From a virus: DNA of 36,235 nucleotides. The notes beneath the pieces were generated by a model that ran no database searches, was not told the origin of the DNA, and saw only the letters and a program-made list of their open reading frames with translations. The stretch spans positions 1 through 36,235 of IMG/VR virus record IMGVR_UViG_3300005841_000059; one strand, given 5' to 3'. The position numbers and the translations under genes were made by a program. Shown here piece by piece: positions 8,099 through 25,900 of this stretch. Every line of letters begins with the position of its first letter. Position 1 is the first letter of the stretch.

Positions 8099-8226
8099 CG
8101 TTTTTTGCCTACCGTGTCTGAGCGGGTAAAACGCGCATGCGGGCGGGTAAATGCACCCCCCTTTCCAGTAGCTTTGCCAGTAACTACATTCCGTCTTGTA
8201 CTCACTTTTTCAGACAGGAAACGGAC

Positions 8227-9693
8227 ATGGCAAAGGCAAAAATCGTTGGTGAAAAGCTCATCGCATCGGACCTGGCGGTGCGCAACTTCTTGGACGCGAA
8301 CGCCAAGGACCGCGCGGCGGCGCTGGCGCAAGGCACCAAGGTGCCCAAGGTGGCCCGCCTGCCTGACGGCAACGGCCTAACGCTGGTGGACATCCTGGGC
8401 AATAAGCCCGTGTGGCGCTTTGAGTACCGCATGCCCTGCGCCGACACCGGGCGCATGTTGGACAAGGGCTTGTCCCTGGGCACCTACCCGGCTGTGCTGC
8501 TGGCCGTGGCCCGCGTGAAAGTGCAGCCGCTGCGCGATGCCGTGGCGCTGGGCAACGACCCATCCGACGAACGCAAAGCCAAGCGCGAAGCCGCTAAGGC
8601 AGCGGACGCACACGCGCGCACGAACCAACAGCGCATTGCCGATGGCTTGGCGCCGCTGGCCCCCGCTGGCAGTCTGGAAGACGTGGCGGTTAGCCTGCAC
8701 AAGAAGGAAACGGACGCGGGCAATTGGGGCGTGCAGCACGGCGAATACGTGTTGGACGTGGTGCGCCGCAACTACGAAGCGATCAAGCACAAGCACATGG
8801 CCGCGATTACCGAAGAAGACTTGAAGGCGTGCATTGACCCGTATGTGACGGTGGGCAAGCTGATTACCGCAAAGGACATGCTCGATTTTGCAAAGAAAAT
8901 CTTTGTCCACGCGCGGCTGCAAAAGGTTTGCAAGCACAACATTGCCGCCGACCTTGACGGCTACGTCAAGCGCCCCGCGTCCAAGAATCACCCGCAGCTA
9001 AAGGACCAATCCCGCTTGGGGGAGTTGGTGTGCGCGGCGCGCGATAGCACCCGCACCATTGCCGCCGCAGCACTGCAAATGCAAATCATGCTGTTCCAGC
9101 GCCCCGCGAACACTTGCGGCATGCGCTGGGCTGATATTGACTTTGCCGCGCGTGTCTGGCGCATCCCCGCCGAACAAATGAAGCTGAAGCCCGCGCAGCG
9201 CGCGCGCTTTGATTTCCATATCGTGCCGCTGCCTAAGCAAGCGCTGCGCTTGCTGCTTACCCTGCGCGAAATCACGGGCCACCTTGAGCACGTCTTTGTT
9301 GCCCGCACGGATGGCCGTGACGAACCTATCGCAACGGCTACCCTTCTGTACGCACTGCGTGACTGCGGTTTTACCGAAGAGGAAATCAACAGCCACGGCA
9401 CGCGCGGCACCGCGTCCACTGCGATCCGCGACCATATCCCGGGCCAATGGGATGACGAAATCGAAGCCAATTTGGCCCACGTCTACGGCGGCGCACAGGG
9501 CGCCACCTACAACAAAGCCGCCTATGTGGAAAAGCGCCGCCCCATGCTGCAAGCCTACGCGGACCACTTGGACGCGGTAGCCGCTGGCACTTGGCAAGCC
9601 GAACAGCAAGAAAAGGCGGAACAGTCGCTGCGCGATCTGCAAGCCGAATTCGGGATTGCCGCTAACGTGGTGCCGATGCGCAAAGCAGCCTGA
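8227..9693 (+). CDS. int: P4-type tyrosine integrase
   Basis: Start taken at ATG 8227 (AGGAAAC ribosome site 8216-8222); an in-frame ATG at 8137 would run through probable control DNA. 488 residues. The N-terminal ~120 residues match the P4-integrase arm-binding domain (LPDGNGLTL, WRFEY, LSLGTYP). Catalytic domain: Arg292 in FQRPANTCGMRW, His390-x-x-Arg393 in NSHGTRGTAST, His418 in NLAHVYGG, and nucleophile Tyr428 in ATYNKAAYVEKRR. It joins attP and attB by strand exchange through a 3'-phosphotyrosine. No CTAG occurs in the gene, whereas structural genes are rich in it, so it may have a separate origin. Followed by a strong terminator. Confidence 0.93.
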   Translation: MAKAKIVGEKLIASDLAVRNFLDANAKDRAAALAQGTKVPKVARLPDGNGLTLVDILGNKPVWRFEYRMPCADTGRMLDKGLSLGTYPAVLLAVARVKVQPLRDAVALGNDPSDERKAKREAAKAADAHARTNQQRIADGLAPLAPAGSLEDVAVSLHKKETDAGNWGVQHGEYVLDVVRRNYEAIKHKHMAAITEEDLKACIDPYVTVGKLITAKDMLDFAKKIFVHARLQKVCKHNIAADLDGYVKRPASKNHPQLKDQSRLGELVCAARDSTRTIAAAALQMQIMLFQRPANTCGMRWADIDFAARVWRIPAEQMKLKPAQRARFDFHIVPLPKQALRLLLTLREITGHLEHVFVARTDGRDEPIATATLLYALRDCGFTEEEINSHGTRGTASTAIRDHIPGQWDDEIEANLAHVYGGAQGATYNKAAYVEKRRPMLQAYADHLDAVAAGTWQAEQQEKAEQSLRDLQAEFGIAANVVPMRKAA

Positions 9694-18500: not shown

Positions 18501-18903
18501 GGCGTGGTGCTGTGTGGCGTCAAGTTGGAAGCGGCGAACGATAGGCGCGCAGTGCATGAGACACAAGGTCCGTGCACACAACGAAACCAAAAAGTTAGCC
18601 CGCAATGGCCCGCATCCGCACGAATGTGCAAGCGGCACAAGCACTTGCCGACACCACTAGAAATTGAGCAACACCACAACGTGAAGACACGCGGTGCGTG
18701 CATGGCGTGACACCACGCGGTGCGCAACATGAAAGAGATTGAAAACGGGCATGACGCGCAGTAACGCGCATGGACGCGGCGCTACGCAGCAAGACGAAGC
18801 AAGACAAAACCACGGGTTTGCAATGCAGCCTGGCAGGGACTACAACCGTTGTCCGCACCACACGCGGGCATGGCGGGGCGCAAAACCAAGGGGACAGCGC
18901 ACC
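18501..18903. promoter_or_regulatory. 403-base divergent early control region
   Basis: The - and + early operons diverge from here, so both early promoters and operators must lie in it. It contains two exact copies of CACGCGGTGCG (18688-18698 and 18714-18724) and CGTGACACCAC (18706-18716), whose reverse complement occurs at 7889-7899 near the integrase. A weak + strand promoter candidate is TTGAAA (18739-18744), 17 bases, TAACGC. No gene was supported in the stretch. Confidence 0.5.
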
Positions 18904-19239: not shown

Positions 19240-20328
19240 GTGAATTGGTATCGCTTCCACATTGGTGACTTCTACCGCGATGCCCACGGGCTAACACCCG
19301 CTGAGCACGGCATCTATCGCATGCTGATAGATGCGTACTACCTGCATGAAAGCCCAATTGAAGATGATGCGAAATGTATAAAGCGTGTCAGTAACTGCCG
19401 CACCATCTCGGAGCGACATGCAACCGCAAGGGTACTTGAGCGCTTTTTTGAACTGAAAGACGGCTTTTGGCACCACGCGCGCATTGATCGGGACTTAGCA
19501 GGATATGCAGAAAAAGCGCCCGCGCGTGAATTCAAAAGGGAAGACGCAAAAGAACGCAAAGCCCGCCACCATCAGCGCCGCCGCATCCTCTTTGACGCAC
19601 TGCGCGCCGCTAGCGCTCCCGTGCGCTGGAATGCGCCAGTGCGCGAACTGCGCGAACTAGCACAGCGCCTAGGGCTAACCGAAGCACTGCGCCGCGACAG
19701 CGAACTAGAACGCACTAGGAACACTGTTCTAAGTGGAACCACGGACGCACATAGAACGCACGTTCTAGGCGAACAAATACCAGCTATCAACGGCTATGCG
19801 CGTTCACCCGCAAACATTTCTAAAGGTACGGATGGGCAGAAAACCGGCGACGCAGAACGCGATATCCCCAGTACCCATTACCCATTAACCAATAGAACAC
19901 ACAGTGTTCTAGGTGACGCGTCCGAGGTCGCTGAAGCGCCCGCGAACGGCGCCCCGCAGCCCGTGTGTGTGCCGGTTGAAAGCGAACCCGGGAACCGGAC
20001 AGCCGAAGCCATCGCAGCCGCAGCGGGCGCCATCGGCATTGCCTACGGGAACCCACGGGATGCGCTGTTGCTGGCCCTGGTGCAGCGGGGCGCCGTGCTT
20101 GGAGACTTTGAAACCGCCGCAACGGAAGCCGTGGCGCGCGGCAAAGGATGGGCTTACATGCTCGGCATTGTCCGTACCCGATTGGACGACAGCACCCGCA
20201 ACGCAGAAAGGGCCCGGGAAGGCCCCAAATCGGGCCGTGAAGGCGTCAAAACGGTTTCGGTGGACGAAGCCATAGCGGCGGGGCGTGAACTGGCTGCACG
20301 GGCTGCGGCGATGGGAACCAAGCCATGA
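19240..20328 (+). CDS. DUF1376 replication initiation-type protein
   Basis: 362 residues from a GTG 10 bases after the Cro-like gene. The N-terminal ~85 residues start MNWYRFHIGDFYRDAHGLTP and continue EHGIYRMLIDAYY, the DUF1376 domain found in phage replication genes. Then a basic linker, and a helical C-terminal domain (EAIAAAAGAIGIAYGNPRDA, GWAYMLGIVRTRLDD). Like lambda O, the coding region itself contains inverted-repeat iterons (19706-19911) that may be the origin. Role as initiator is inferred from domain, place and iterons. Confidence 0.8.
   Translation: MNWYRFHIGDFYRDAHGLTPAEHGIYRMLIDAYYLHESPIEDDAKCIKRVSNCRTISERHATARVLERFFELKDGFWHHARIDRDLAGYAEKAPAREFKREDAKERKARHHQRRRILFDALRAASAPVRWNAPVRELRELAQRLGLTEALRRDSELERTRNTVLSGTTDAHRTHVLGEQIPAINGYARSPANISKGTDGQKTGDAERDIPSTHYPLTNRTHSVLGDASEVAEAPANGAPQPVCVPVESEPGNRTAEAIAAAAGAIGIAYGNPRDALLLALVQRGAVLGDFETAATEAVARGKGWAYMLGIVRTRLDDSTRNAERAREGPKSGREGVKTVSVDEAIAAGRELAARAAAMGTKP
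19706..19911. repeat. Inverted-repeat iterons inside the replication gene, candidate origin
   Basis: Hexamer TAGAAC and its complement GTTCTA recur as palindromes: TAGAAC (19706), TAGGAAC/GTTCTA (19716-19731), TAGAAC GCAC GTTCTA (19752-19767), and TAGAACAC ACA GTGTTCTA (19893-19911). Just before the last lies an AT-richer stretch with two CCCATTA copies (about 19874-19887), a possible unwinding site. Confidence 0.6.
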
Positions 20329-21136: not shown

Positions 21137-21169
21137 GCGTCCGAGGTGCGTCCGAGGTGCGTCCGAGGT
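21137..21169 (+). repeat. Three tandem 11-base repeats
   Basis: GCGTCCGAGGT repeated three times without gap (21137, 21148, 21159), then TTCGCGTTCC and pyrimidine-rich CTGTTTTTCTTTTTCACC. Eleven bases is about one helical turn, so a protein could bind all copies on one face. Downstream of the doubtful ORF and upstream of the 66-residue gene. Confidence 0.75.
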
Positions 21170-21420: not shown

Positions 21421-21926
21421 TGGCCTGTGCCACTGAAGCCGACTGCACCCGCGTGCCTTGGTGCCGCATAGCGGGCAAGTGCTGTGCGGTTACGCGTAAC
21501 CCCCGGATTCGGTTCACTGTGTACGGGCAGGCGGCGAGCAAGGCGAATTCTCGGCAATTGGTATTGCTGCGTGGCAAGCCTGCATCAATCAAGAGTGAAG
21601 CGGCACTGATGTTTGAAGCCGATATGTTGCGCCAGATACCGCCCAAGTTACGCGTAATGCTCACTGGGGATTGTGCGGTGCGCATGCGGATTTTTTACAG
21701 GGACCGGCGCAGCGATTTGGATGAATCTATCGTGTTGGATTGTTTGCAGTCGCAGTACAAAAACATAACGGACCCGCGTGGCGTGACGAGCAAGGTATTG
21801 CTGCGCCGCGGGGTGGTTATTAATGATCGGCAGTTCAAGGCCAAGCACATTTACCACGGCATTGATAAACAAAATCCACGCATTGAATTGGTTGTGTGGC
21901 AGATGAAAGGCAGCGGCGATGACTGA
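21420..21926 (+). CDS. rusA: RusA-like Holliday junction resolvase
   Basis: 168 residues. FTVYGQAASKANSRQLVLLR matches the RusA N-terminal strand; RRSDLDESIVLDCLQ (D99, D101, D107) and GVVINDRQF (D136) place the acidic residues that bind metal in RusA. The N usually after DLD is E here and the conserved Lys of the active site is not evident, so activity may differ. An extra Cys-rich N-terminus (MACATEADCTRVPWCRIAGK) precedes the domain. RusA cuts four-way junctions from replication/recombination, fitting the phage's Exo/annealing module. Confidence 0.72.
   Translation: MACATEADCTRVPWCRIAGKCCAVTRNPRIRFTVYGQAASKANSRQLVLLRGKPASIKSEAALMFEADMLRQIPPKLRVMLTGDCAVRMRIFYRDRRSDLDESIVLDCLQSQYKNITDPRGVTSKVLLRRGVVINDRQFKAKHIYHGIDKQNPRIELVVWQMKGSGDD
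21489..21500. promoter_or_regulatory. GTTACGCGTAAC palindrome inside rusA
   Basis: Perfect 12-base palindrome, identical to those at 25140 and 25190, here inside the resolvase coding region near its start; likely binding site of the same regulator. Confidence 0.5.
21648..21657. promoter_or_regulatory. TTACGCGTAA palindrome inside rusA
   Basis: The 10-base core of the same palindrome, 159 bases further along; outer bases differ (A before, T after). Confidence 0.4.
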
Positions 21927-22161
21927 CGAAGAAATCCTAGCGGTACGCGATAGCGTGTTGCCTGCGCAGGGCCAAGAGTTGGATTGCGTGTTGTTTGCGC
22001 GCGCGATTCTTGCGGCGGCACGGGGCGAACCGGATTTGCCCCCGCAGTGGCTGGACAACTTGCGCGACGCTGCGCGGTATCTTTTTCAAGAGGGCCAGAC
22101 CAAACAAGGCATTGCGGTGCAAGCGTGCATCACCATGCTAGAAGACGATAGCGAAGACTAG
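21919..22161 (+). CDS. 80-residue early protein, unknown
   Basis: Overlaps the resolvase end by 8 bases. MTDEEILAVRDSVLPAQGQE then DCVLFARAILAAARGEPDLP, WLDNLRDAARYLFQEGQ and an acidic tail LEDDSED. Typical of short phage early proteins with a helical layout; no function known. Confidence 0.65.
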   Translation: MTDEEILAVRDSVLPAQGQELDCVLFARAILAAARGEPDLPPQWLDNLRDAARYLFQEGQTKQGIAVQACITMLEDDSED

Positions 22162-22215
22162 TTGTGTTGAATTAGCAGGCGGGCGGGGCTTTTCATTCAC
22201 TTTGAAAGGTTCCAA

Positions 22216-22821
22216 ATGGGCAACGAAACGGACAACCGTGTAGAGCGCATGTCGCAAGCGGACGCGGCGCGGCAAATGGAAATGCTGCATGCGGCGAAAG
22301 AGCGGCAACTGGAATGCGTCAAGGCGCGCAACGCTGAACCGGACTACAGCGACAAGCAGTGGCAACCCGTGGGCGCGGACAAGGTGGCCTGCGCGCCAAG
22401 CGCGGGGGCCATCGGTGGTGCGGGCCTGGTCATGGGCCGTGCGATCCCTGCGGGCGGCGGTGTGATTTCAGCCGGGCCGATGACGTTCCACAACCCGCAA
22501 GCGGTGCCCGCCCCGTGGGTCACGCCTAGCGGCGGCATGAATCTGCCCGCAGGCGAAGCCTTCACCCGGCAAACTTGCATTGCGCTGGCCCACCAATGGG
22601 CGGGGCACTGCATGCAGCAAGACCGCTTGCACCGGCCTGCGGACGGCTGGATACAGCGGCGCGCGGCGGTGGAGTTGTTTGACTCACTGCTGTGGGACGT
22701 GCTGCATGCGCAAAACGTGCCCAAGGACGCAGCCGCCGAAATCCGCAAAACGCTGGCCCGGCTGCTGGACGCGTGGGGCGATGGGCAAGCCGTGGGCACG
22801 GCCTATTCGCGCGGGGACTAG
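22216..22821 (+). CDS. 201-residue unknown early protein
   Basis: Ribosome site AAAGG 5-9 bases upstream. The N-terminal 40 residues are a charged helix (MSQADAARQMEMLHAAKERQ), the middle is Gly/Pro-rich (AIGGAGLVMGRAIPAGGGVI), and the C-terminal ~90 residues are helical and end GTAYSRGD. Two domains tied by a flexible linker. No recognised motif. Confidence 0.6.
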   Translation: MGNETDNRVERMSQADAARQMEMLHAAKERQLECVKARNAEPDYSDKQWQPVGADKVACAPSAGAIGGAGLVMGRAIPAGGGVISAGPMTFHNPQAVPAPWVTPSGGMNLPAGEAFTRQTCIALAHQWAGHCMQQDRLHRPADGWIQRRAAVELFDSLLWDVLHAQNVPKDAAAEIRKTLARLLDAWGDGQAVGTAYSRGD

Positions 22822-22823
22822 CC

Positions 22824-23327
22824 ATGTTGGACCCTGACGAAATGCTAGCGCGCTGCGTGCTGGCGGTGGCTGGTAACGCCTTGCTGCATGTCTCAAGCGC
22901 TACGCATGGCCTGCCTGACGAAGCCTTGTGCGGGCGGGCAACCGCGCTGGCGGTGCAGTATGCAAATTGCCTTGTGCAAGCCACTGTGCCGCTGGCGGCT
23001 GCGCTGCCTGGCGATGCCGCGCCCATCGCACCGCCTGCGCCGGCGCCCGTGCCCAAGAAATGGCAAACGCTGCAAGAGTATTGCAGCACGCAGTTGCAGT
23101 TTGCCGCCTCGCGCTCTAGCCTGTATTCGCTGGTCAAGCTGCTACGGCCCACGCTGGTGCAACGCGGGGTGCTCTTGAAGCGCGGGCGCAGTTGGTACGT
23201 CGAGCGCGAACACTTCGCCGCAACGCTGCGCGAGTTGGTGCCCCATGCGGTGGGCCCGCATGACTACATCCAACAGGTAACGGGCTACCCGGGGGGCGGC
23301 AATTCCCACGACACCATAGGCCACTGA
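22824..23327 (+). CDS. 167-residue protein with possible C-terminal winged helix
   Basis: Starts 2 bases after the previous stop. N-terminal half is helical, then a Pro/Ala linker (APIAPPAPAPVPKKW), then KKWQTLQEYCSTQLQFAASR, LYSLVKLLRPTLVQRGVLL and KRGRSWYVEREHFA, which could fold as a winged helix with the GRSWYV hairpin as wing. Possibly DNA-binding; not certain. Placed just before the methyltransferase. Confidence 0.55.
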   Translation: MLDPDEMLARCVLAVAGNALLHVSSATHGLPDEALCGRATALAVQYANCLVQATVPLAAALPGDAAPIAPPAPAPVPKKWQTLQEYCSTQLQFAASRSSLYSLVKLLRPTLVQRGVLLKRGRSWYVEREHFAATLRELVPHAVGPHDYIQQVTGYPGGGNSHDTIGH

Positions 23328-23328
23328 C

Positions 23329-24252
23329 ATGCGGTTTTTGTCGGTGTGCGCGGGAATCGAAACCGCGTCTTTGGCTTGGGCTGCGTTGGGCTGGCGCGCA
23401 TTGGCGTTCGCGGAAATAGACCGCTTCGCTTGTGCGCTGCTGACCCAGCGCTGGCCCAGCGTGCCCAATTGGGGCGATATGCGTTTGTGGGAGCAATGGA
23501 GCGATGCAACTTTCGATCTTCTCGCAGGCGGCACCCCCTGCCAATCCTTTAGCAACTCGGGAGGCAGACGCGGAATGGCTGATGCGCGTGGCAACCTCTC
23601 GCTTGTCTTTTGTGCCATTGCTGCACGGTATCGTCCCCGTTGGCTGGTTTGGGAAAACGTGCCCGGTGTTTTATCCAGCGACGGCGGACGCGCCTTTGGC
23701 GCAGTCCTGCACGCCTTGGGGCAATGCGGGTACGGGTTCGCATGGCGGGTGCTGGACGCTCAATATTTCGGAGTGCCACAGCGACGGCGGCGCGTCTTTC
23801 TTGTCGGACATCTTGGAGACTGGCACCCCGCCTGCGCGGTACTTTTTGACCGACAAAGCACACAAGGGCATGCAGCACCGGGCGGCGGCGCGCAACAAGA
23901 AACTAGCCCGCCATTGCTTGCCGCAGGACACAGCAACAACCCCATAGACGAACCGCTAGCGCTGTGCGGGCAACGCCTGCGCCGTCTGACCCCGCGCGAG
24001 TGGGAACGCCTGCAAGGCATCCCCGATGACTACACCGCGATAACGTACCGGGGCAAGCCCGCGTCAGACCGGGTGCGCTATCGCGCCATCGGCAACGCCT
24101 GGGCGGTGCCCGTGCCCGCCTGGATCGGCGCGCGTATTGCGCAAGTGCACCCGCTGGTGCAAAGTGCGCAGCCCGCGCACCTGGCGAGCGCACAAGGCCC
24201 CGTGTTCGCGCTGGCGCCGCGCCCCGTCCCTGTCACTCCTGATCTGTTTTAG
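23329..24252 (+). CDS. C5-cytosine DNA methyltransferase
   Basis: 307 residues. Motif I FLSVCAGIETASLAW (3-17), motif IV GGTPCQSFS with catalytic Cys71, motif VI ENVPG (Glu109), motif VIII QRRRRVF (151-157), motif X YRAIGNAWAVPVPA near the C-terminus. The specificity region between VIII and the C-terminus is short (~60 residues). It methylates cytosine C5 from S-adenosylmethionine. No matching endonuclease is in the window, so it is an orphan, useful against host restriction or in regulation. Lies in the early + operon. Confidence 0.92.
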   Translation: MRFLSVCAGIETASLAWAALGWRALAFAEIDRFACALLTQRWPSVPNWGDMRLWEQWSDATFDLLAGGTPCQSFSNSGGRRGMADARGNLSLVFCAIAARYRPRWLVWENVPGVLSSDGGRAFGAVLHALGQCGYGFAWRVLDAQYFGVPQRRRRVFLVGHLGDWHPACAVLFDRQSTQGHAAPGGGAQQETSPPLLAAGHSNNPIDEPLALCGQRLRRLTPREWERLQGIPDDYTAITYRGKPASDRVRYRAIGNAWAVPVPAWIGARIAQVHPLVQSAQPAHLASAQGPVFALAPRPVPVTPDLF

Positions 24253-24269
24253 TCAAAGGACGACAAACC

Positions 24270-24689
24270 ATGTCAATGCATGTCCCCAACCAATACCGCA
24301 TGCGCGCCGGGCGCCTTGCCTCCACCAACGCGGCGGGCAACAACGGTGCTTTTTTCATCCCGAACAAATGCGTGCACGAAACAATGCGGGACATGCCGCT
24401 GCGTGCCATCGCATCGGACGGCTTGGAGTGGGAACACGTCAGCGTGTCCCTTCCCTACCGCACACCATCATGGGAAGAAATGGCCTATATCAAGGATTTG
24501 TTTTGGGACACGCAAGACGCTGTGATGCAGCTACACCCGCCGCACTCCCAATACGTCAACAACCATCCCCACACGCTGCACCTGTGGCGCCCGATGGCCG
24601 CACAGATTCCGCTGCCCGCGTCTATCTTGGTTGGCATTGTGGGCATGGGCCCTGACGAAGCGCGCGCACTGGCAGCCAACGCACCATGA
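24270..24689 (+). CDS. DUF7694-like phage protein
   Basis: 139 residues with AAAGGA upstream. The region WEHVSVSLPYRTPSWEEMAY then IKDLFWDTQDAVMQLHPPHS, YVNNHPHTLHLWRP and IPLPASILVG is a pattern I know as DUF7694, common in phage early operons and of unknown function. It ends the early + operon; a strong terminator follows 6 bases after the stop. Confidence 0.75.
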   Translation: MSMHVPNQYRMRAGRLASTNAAGNNGAFFIPNKCVHETMRDMPLRAIASDGLEWEHVSVSLPYRTPSWEEMAYIKDLFWDTQDAVMQLHPPHSQYVNNHPHTLHLWRPMAAQIPLPASILVGIVGMGPDEARALAANAP

Positions 24690-24695
24690 ATGACT

Positions 24696-24719
24696 AAGGG
24701 CCCCGAAGGGCCCTTTTTT
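24696..24719 (+). terminator. Intrinsic terminator of the early + operon
   Basis: Stem AAGGGCCC (24696-24703), loop CGAA, GGGCCCTT (24708-24715) followed by a run of T to 24719. Its end coincides with the stop codon of the convergent gene at 24719. Confidence 0.85.
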
Positions 24720-25093
24720 CATTCTGCTTTCTTGTACCAGCGCGATTCGTGCTCCGGGTCCGCGCCCCCGTTCCACGCCTTCAGCGCCCGTGCCCGCGCC
24801 CCCTTGAAATACTTTTCAACAGCCTCTAGGCGCGCTTCGTTGTTGGTGAAATATTGGGTGCGCTGCGATGCGCCATATCCCTTGCCTGCGCGCAGCGCTC
24901 TCGGGTAGAACGCGAAGTAGGTGCCCGGTTCGCGCTTCCACTGGAGGCCCCTGTAACCCTCTTCGATGGCTTCAAACGTGACGCGGGAAAACAGCACCTG
25001 CGCGCCAATGCGCCGCCCTTGCTTGTCAGTCACGCCAAAATCGGCGGTTTCGCGCCCTTGTTCGATTTCTTCAACTTGCTTGCAGTAGGTCAT
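24719..25093 (-). CDS. 124-residue protein divergent from the late operon, unknown
   Basis: Start at 25093 with GGAAAC upstream. MTYCKQVEEIEQGRETADFG then VTDKQGRRIGAQVLFSRVTF, AFYPRALRAGKGYGASQRTQ and a basic helical end. Beta-strand pattern in the middle suggests a small alpha/beta domain. It is a single gene on the - strand under a promoter next to the GTTACGCGTAAC sites, so it may be the regulator acting there, but it has no clear HTH. Confidence 0.65.
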   Translation of the reverse strand: MTYCKQVEEIEQGRETADFGVTDKQGRRIGAQVLFSRVTFEAIEEGYRGLQWKREPGTYFAFYPRALRAGKGYGASQRTQYFTNNEARLEAVEKYFKGARARALKAWNGGADPEHESRWYKKAE

Positions 25094-25139
25094 GCGTGTT
25101 TCCGTTCGTGTTTCGTGTTGCGATGACGAATAGTCTCAC

Positions 25140-25151
25140 GTTACGCGTAAC
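25140..25151. promoter_or_regulatory. Operator palindrome GTTACGCGTAAC (1)
   Basis: Perfect 12-base palindrome, just upstream of a possible - strand -10 (TATTCG, 25132-25127) of the gene at 25093. Its centre is 50 bases from that of the second copy at 25190, about five helical turns. Confidence 0.6.
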
Positions 25152-25189
25152 GGACGCAAGGGGTCAGCCGACGAACGGTAGTAGTGGGC

Positions 25190-25212
25190 GTTACGCGTAA
25201 CTGTGCTATGAT
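25190..25212 (+). promoter_or_regulatory. Operator GTTACGCGTAAC (2) inside a + strand promoter
   Basis: Palindrome at 25190-25201 lies in the spacer of a promoter whose extended -10 is TGC TATGAT (25204-25212); the -35 is poor. A protein bound here would block or assist polymerase for the + genes from 25243. Confidence 0.6.
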
Positions 25213-25242: not shown

Positions 25243-25437
25243 ATGACCGAAGCCCAAACCCAAGCCGTGCAAACCCTGCAAGCCGCAGGCTACCAATGCG
25301 AAGCCGACGCCAACCCGGTTGCCGTCATCGTGCAAGACCCGGTGTCCTGCCAAAGCGGCGCCCGCACTTGGGTAGAGCAAAAGGCCCGCACGGTGTACCT
25401 GTGGGAAGTGGCTAGCTTTCTGAACACCCGCAGCTAA
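25243..25437 (+). CDS. 64-residue small protein, first + gene of the divergent pair
   Basis: GGAA 9 bases upstream. MTEAQTQAVQTLQAAGYQCE, then VAVIVQDPVSCQSGARTWVE and TVYLWEVASFLNTRS. One small alpha/beta domain with a Cys in each half; no match known. Under the palindrome-controlled promoter and coupled to the next gene (1 base apart). Confidence 0.65.
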   Translation: MTEAQTQAVQTLQAAGYQCEADANPVAVIVQDPVSCQSGARTWVEQKARTVYLWEVASFLNTRS

Positions 25438-25438
25438 C

Positions 25439-25900
25439 ATGACCAAGCCTTTTCTTGTCAACGTCGAATGGCTGGACTACGCGCACGGCAGTGCAGCCGA
25501 AGAGGGCCAGCCCCTTGCGGTGGACCTTATGGCCCTAGCGGAAGGTGCCACGGTGCGCGCGGGGTCCGTGCCCATCCCTGTGGACCGCTTTGACCTTGTG
25601 CGCGAAATCGTCAGCGTGGCCGAGCTTTACACCAGCGATAGCGCCGTGCAGGATGACGACCGCATGTGGTTTCGCATGTACCCGGCAAAGCTCATTGCGC
25701 GCGCCCGCGTATGGCTTGCGCTGCACCAACCTACCGCCCCCGTCCCCATGACCAACGCGCAGCGCCAAGCCGCCTTCCGCGTCAGGCAAGCCATGCTCAA
25801 GGGCGCCTGCGAAGTGCGCGGCATTTGGCTAGAACCCCGCCTGCACGAACAGCTAAAGGCGTACGCGGCCAAACTTGCCAAGCAAGCACCCGCCGCCTAG
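25439..25900 (+). CDS. 153-residue protein with possible ribbon-helix-helix end
   Basis: MTKPFLVNVEWLDYAHGSAA; the central part is a beta/alpha domain. The last ~50 residues, MTNAQRQAAFRVRQAMLKGA then CEVRGIWLEPRLHEQLKAYA, resemble a ribbon-helix-helix: a basic N-terminal helix, a strand (VRGIWL) and helices, as in small Arc/CopG-like regulators. It could be the protein that binds the nearby palindromes. Followed by a terminator. Confidence 0.6.
   Translation: MTKPFLVNVEWLDYAHGSAAEEGQPLAVDLMALAEGATVRAGSVPIPVDRFDLVREIVSVAELYTSDSAVQDDDRMWFRMYPAKLIARARVWLALHQPTAPVPMTNAQRQAAFRVRQAMLKGACEVRGIWLEPRLHEQLKAYAAKLAKQAPAA

Follow-up and report, generated by a model that had tools for sequence, protein, structure and literature searches.

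The palindromic 12-mer GTTACGCGTAAC, which stands in a divergent promoter region of a phage, is in our reading (with a probability of roughly 80%) the operator of a RepF/UrfF-like repressor of about 50 residues that is encoded in the very operon it controls, an autorepressed operon with variable cargo genes and a layout resembling that of acr-aca operons. This reading draws on the excess of the palindrome, its placement in promoters, its co-occurrence with one protein family, and the remote similarity of that family to RepF. The whole stretch of DNA analysed, hereafter called the window, is an IMG/VR virus record of 36.2 kb, and a second contig (3300026088_000119), which shows a single mismatch to it in 11,457 bp, represents the same phage. 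In addition to the features collected in Table 1, the window carries a DUF1376 replication gene, rusA and a gene for a C5 DNA methylase; the divergent cassette occupies 24.7–25.9 kb, and the terminase genes follow from ~26.0 kb on.

An exact search located the core palindrome TTACGCGTAA exactly four times in the window, at 21490, 21648, 25141 and 25191, just as a first-pass annotation of this DNA had reported, and no fifth match was found in the window with one mismatch allowed. Markov models of orders 1–4 predicted 0.005–0.019 copies, in agreement with the earlier estimate of far fewer than one, and in the same comparison TTACGCGTAA was by far the strongest palindromic 10-mer of the window. 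The complete 12-mer was likewise confirmed at three of the four sites (starting at 21489, 25140 and 25190), while GTTACGCGTAAT is found at 21647 instead. Among the papers listed by a literature search for the palindrome, none dealt with an operator of such a sequence.

Two of the four copies lie in the divergent promoter region, as had been annotated, and one of them was rightly assigned to a promoter spacer. The other, described as sitting next to a −10, turned out to be in the equivalent position, given that the copies at 25140 and 25190 both precede an extended −10 and occupy the spacer. Relative to the −10, the 25190 palindrome is placed as in 12 independent other loci (see below); the −35 of this rightward promoter is poor. 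Since a generic promoter consensus scan of the window listed neither the rightward nor the leftward promoter, both were read by eye, and their support comes from comparing the other loci. DNA looping across the 50 bp between the two sites, which the first-pass annotation had suggested, is not supported: a lone palindrome is the rule at the other loci, and the spacing needs no more than two back-to-back promoters, each with a site in its spacer.

Table 1. Coordinates of the predicted regulatory sites and of selected genes in the window.
Feature	Position	Strand	Basis or remark
Predicted operator GTTACGCGTAAC, spacer of rightward promoter	25190..25201	+	exact palindrome
Extended −10 (TGC TATGAT), rightward promoter	25204..25212	+	read from sequence
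Predicted operator GTTACGCGTAAC, spacer of leftward promoter	25140..25151	-	exact palindrome
Leftward promoter	25130..25159	-	TTGCGT 25159-25154, 18-bp spacer, extended −10 TGA GACTAT 25138-25130
Element TACCGTTCGTCGG between the two operators	25168..25180	-	common to L039, L045, L051 and L067, beside like promoters
First gene of rightward operon, 64 aa, putative variable cargo	25243..25437	+	ORF
Gene for 153-aa protein, residues ~101-153 = predicted ~50-aa regulator domain	25439..25900	+	
Gene of leftward promoter, 124 aa, hypothetical	24719..25093	-	
Operator-like GTTACGCGTAAC inside rusA	21489..21500		exact palindrome, codes VTRN
Operator-like GTTACGCGTAAT inside rusA	21647..21658		core palindrome; rare TTA and GTA codons used
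Integrase gene	8137-9693		
AlpA-like gene	9937		among recognisable DNA-binding genes
Gene 13032	13032		among recognisable DNA-binding genes
Cro-like gene	18904		among recognisable DNA-binding genes

At five loci, an element of the form YACCGTTYGTCGG lies at a distance of 8–21 bp from the operator; the 683 kb compared contain one further copy, in L067, close to a second sequence of the GTTA type. Its positions are 25168–25180 in the window, 606 in L039, 3430 in L045, 4219 in L051, and 97 and 1604 in L067; it was seen only near operator promoters, in either orientation. Turning to the genes of the cassette, the product of 25243 matched no family, and that of 25439 has the regulator domain fused to a different N-terminal part, the predicted structure of the whole protein being of low confidence. 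Caulobacter phage TMCBR3 encodes a hypothetical protein with 42% identity to the 24719 product, and there too (L032, ~2773–2923) the homologous gene is located at a divergent promoter region, in which the repeat CCGATTGGAAC occurs twice. Apart from this match, searches of viral contigs, named phages and plasmids for close relatives of 24719 and 25439 led back only to the same phage, and the genome contigs searched contained no relative of 24719.

The same promoter arrangement was found in other phages. Scanning viral contigs for GTTACGCGTAAC with a nearby TATNAT returned 17 stretches; not counting this phage, they represent 12 independent loci. The query that picked these loci required a −10 after the palindrome and included no −35; at least four of the six positions of TTGACA were present beside the palindrome in 10 of the 12 loci, and exact TTGAC in seven. 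The carrier contigs range from 38 to 65% in GC content, and several of them encode large terminases of different families. Phages with a ~50–70% identical terminase, on the other hand, were devoid of the palindrome, also when one mismatch was allowed, and of the genes 24719, 25243 and 25439 of the divergent cassette, and several of these palindrome-free relatives retain the cro, DUF1376 and rusA genes. The palindrome is therefore not lineage-specific. The first-pass annotation had treated a lack of conservation in relatives as one point against its proposal; taken alone, the absence from terminase relatives speaks in that direction, but the 12-mer is kept in unrelated phages that have the same small regulator gene. 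In L038, L040, L043 and L050, different small genes are preceded by a shared leader, GTTTAGAAATTMTCTAAAC, which follows the operator promoter.

The regulator gene in question emerged from an all-against-all comparison of open reading frames, which identified a protein of ~50 aa common to the palindrome loci (consensus KT.AERQAAFR.RKA....EVRGI.A....H..IK). Its gene comes after one or two small genes, which differ between loci, and several of the loci show an overlap between its start and the stop codon of the gene before it. The family was clearly present downstream at eight of the 12 loci and weakly at two, L036 and L037 having no clear member and a weak one in the right place; of the others, L043 is cut by the contig end, and L044 is without both the ~50-aa protein and a −35. 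In the window, the C-terminus of the 25439 product is 51–53% identical over 45 aa to the free-standing ~50-aa proteins, and an HMM of the family, of which the window sequence itself is part, recognised this domain with E=1e-21. Of the four binding candidates proposed initially, 25439 is thus the one whose C-terminal domain is the likely regulator, and the other three are not favoured.

Sampling in the reverse direction, by the ~50-aa protein, gave nine loci, five of which were new, including one that starts at the contig edge. All four new loci with upstream DNA had a GTTAC..GTAAC-type palindrome in the promoter (TTGACGTTACGCGTAACGGTGCTATAGT in L066, TTGCGTTACGGTGTAACGGTGATACAAT in L067, TTGCGTTATCGTGTAACGGTGTTATAAT in L068 and GTTACGCGCAAC in L071, after TTGACA), so that the association between palindrome and protein holds both ways. 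Together, promoter placement and the partner family support the core of the first-pass annotation, namely that the palindromes are predicted operators of a phage regulator. In the window and in L040, L041, L066 and L068, the operon lies within ~1.5 kb upstream of the large-terminase gene. The ~50-aa protein was not found among named phages and plasmids by tblastn, a search that low-complexity filtering may have hurt, and 369 genomes gave one weak partial match only. The domain was modelled (pLDDT 87) as helix-strand-helix, for which no solved structure in the PDB provided a match, by sequence or fold; compared with the RHH fold, its elements, a single short strand and two helices, are arranged in a different order in the monomer model.

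Could the palindrome instead be the operator of another phage regulator, used across the early region? The recognisable DNA-binding genes of the window are the Cro-like, AlpA-like and 13032 genes, and such use would account for the sites in rusA too. We nevertheless consider it unlikely that one of them is the binder, as relatives with a similar Cro are without the palindrome and the protein common to unrelated loci is the ~50-aa one. Cro in particular was rejected, because the palindrome is absent from its own region, which has different repeats. Two 19-nt direct repeats (CGTGA..ACACGCGGTGCG type) lie at 18680–18724, upstream of the Cro-like gene, and are likely its own operators. We further noted that the window has an integrase gene, yet no CI-type repressor was recognised beside cro; in the relative L017, a CI-type repressor gene appears, as judged by eye, to be divergent from cro.

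The occurrence of the motif in phages of differing GC content and lineage would also fit a conserved host regulator whose site many phages have adopted in their promoters. A tight two-way link with one phage-encoded protein family is not what one would expect of a host regulator, however, and the stringent form of the promoter was found in no chromosome among 369 genomes, sampled from the class to which a Pseudomonas genome belongs, which makes this explanation very improbable. A third possibility is that the palindromes have no function and arose by chance or as coding repeats. Palindrome pairs in sequence collections are in fact mostly tandem or coding repeats, and some contigs with such pairs (L005, L011, L013 and L014) look like this. 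For the window, this possibility is hardly credible in light of the excess of the palindrome, its placement in promoters and its association, in both directions, with a single protein family; the copies in the promoters are intergenic, and their chance origin is very unlikely. As a separate observation, L005, L014 and L035 (Pseudomonas) contain tandem 52–53-bp repeats, each containing GTTACGCGTAAC followed by a AATAATAAC-like sequence, and these are unrelated to the phage promoters.

The remaining two palindromes do fall within the rusA coding region, the annotated coordinates being correct. With the encoded proteins and the codon usage taken into account, the coding sequences of the window should together hold 0.006 copies, and rusA has two; TTA, which one of them uses, represents only 1.6% of the Leu codons in the window. 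The rusA copies are therefore improbable by chance. No promoter was recognised at either of them, and they are not conserved in relatives; they might act as decoys or roadblocks, or possibly arose by chance after all. Elsewhere in this region, the 11-mer GCGTCCGAGGT is present in three tandem copies at 21137–21169, and CGTCCGAGGT once more at ~19919 inside the DUF1376 gene, possibly as iterons. Inverted AGAAC...GTTCT repeats read from the sequence of the same replication gene (19700–19920) are possible origin repeats.

For the ~50-aa repressor acting on its own operon, the best-supported mechanism would be autorepression by occlusion of the promoter spacer. The repressor of the window would be the C-terminal domain of the 25439–25900 product, and a dimer of it, seated on the palindrome, would block access of RNA polymerase by covering the stretch from −35 to −10 that forms the spacer. 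Transcription of the operon would then start once phage DNA has entered a repressor-free cell and would cease as repressor accumulates. With two such promoters back to back, a single regulator would control both directions, that is, 25243–25900 rightward and 24719–25093 leftward. The genes ahead of the regulator would then be exchangeable cargo. Scans of cargo proteins gave no match to a family with a known function, nor to any known Acr family in the libraries used; by analogy, our guess is that they are anti-defence genes.

Taken further, and only tentatively, these loci may belong to an undescribed class of phage accessory operons, scattered among tailed phages that are not related to one another and frequently situated directly before the terminase genes; a non-HTH autorepressor of ~50 aa would in each case control small anti-defence genes that change from one operon to the next. 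Were this true, the promoter signature of the class would be a bait for new counter-defence proteins. The short signature TTGAC-GTTACGCGTAAC-N4-TATAAT picks out accessory operons in uncultured phages, and if their cargo consists of anti-defence genes, as the acr-aca-like layout suggests, it would offer a new way of finding them. An orphan palindrome is in this manner tied to a concrete small regulator, and the data suggest a possible link between the plasmid replication repressor RepF and the control of phage accessory genes.

RepF has been reported to bind P4, with feedback control of the repF-repA-repC operon (PMC6201506). In an IncQ plasmid, the P4 region, which contains TGAGTACTCA, is followed by a 70-aa gene and then urfF, and the phage operons resemble the P4 E-F-repA-repC operon of RSF1010 (IncQ) in their order of promoter, short first gene and small repressor gene, as well as in having a palindrome in the promoter region. 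The palindromes themselves differ, the P4 operator being TGAGTACTCA-like and that of the phages GTTACGCGTAAC, and RepF, unlike the phage regulators, controls plasmid replication genes. The NCBIfam model of UrfF (plasmid repression protein F, NF041430) matched the window domain with 14.3 bits (E=0.03), the L036-locus protein with 29.6 bits (E=1e-8) and the L038-locus protein with E=5e-4, and the best of these scores stays below the curated cut-off of 100 bits, which no family protein reached. An hhalign comparison of the ~50-aa family with RepF aligned 42 columns at a probability of 43%. The similarity is thus detectable through the L036-locus protein, weak outside that locus and marginal in the pairwise comparison of RepF with the window domain. 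Because the operator sequences differ and the curated cut-off is never reached, the ~50-aa family is, as judged from sequence, a remote relative of RepF/UrfF rather than a member.

Two further systems invite comparison. The IncP-1 KorA operator is GTTTAGCTAAAC, and it is similar to the site predicted here in being a 12-bp palindrome that serves in promoters as a repressor site; its sequence is different, and no KorA-like protein was found here. The regulators Aca1-10 are helix-turn-helix proteins, whereas the ~50-aa family matches no HTH model. As in acr-aca operons, where one inverted repeat is always in the core promoter (PMC9410906), variable small genes are followed by a conserved small regulator gene, and the inverted repeat lies inside the core promoter of the regulator's own operon.
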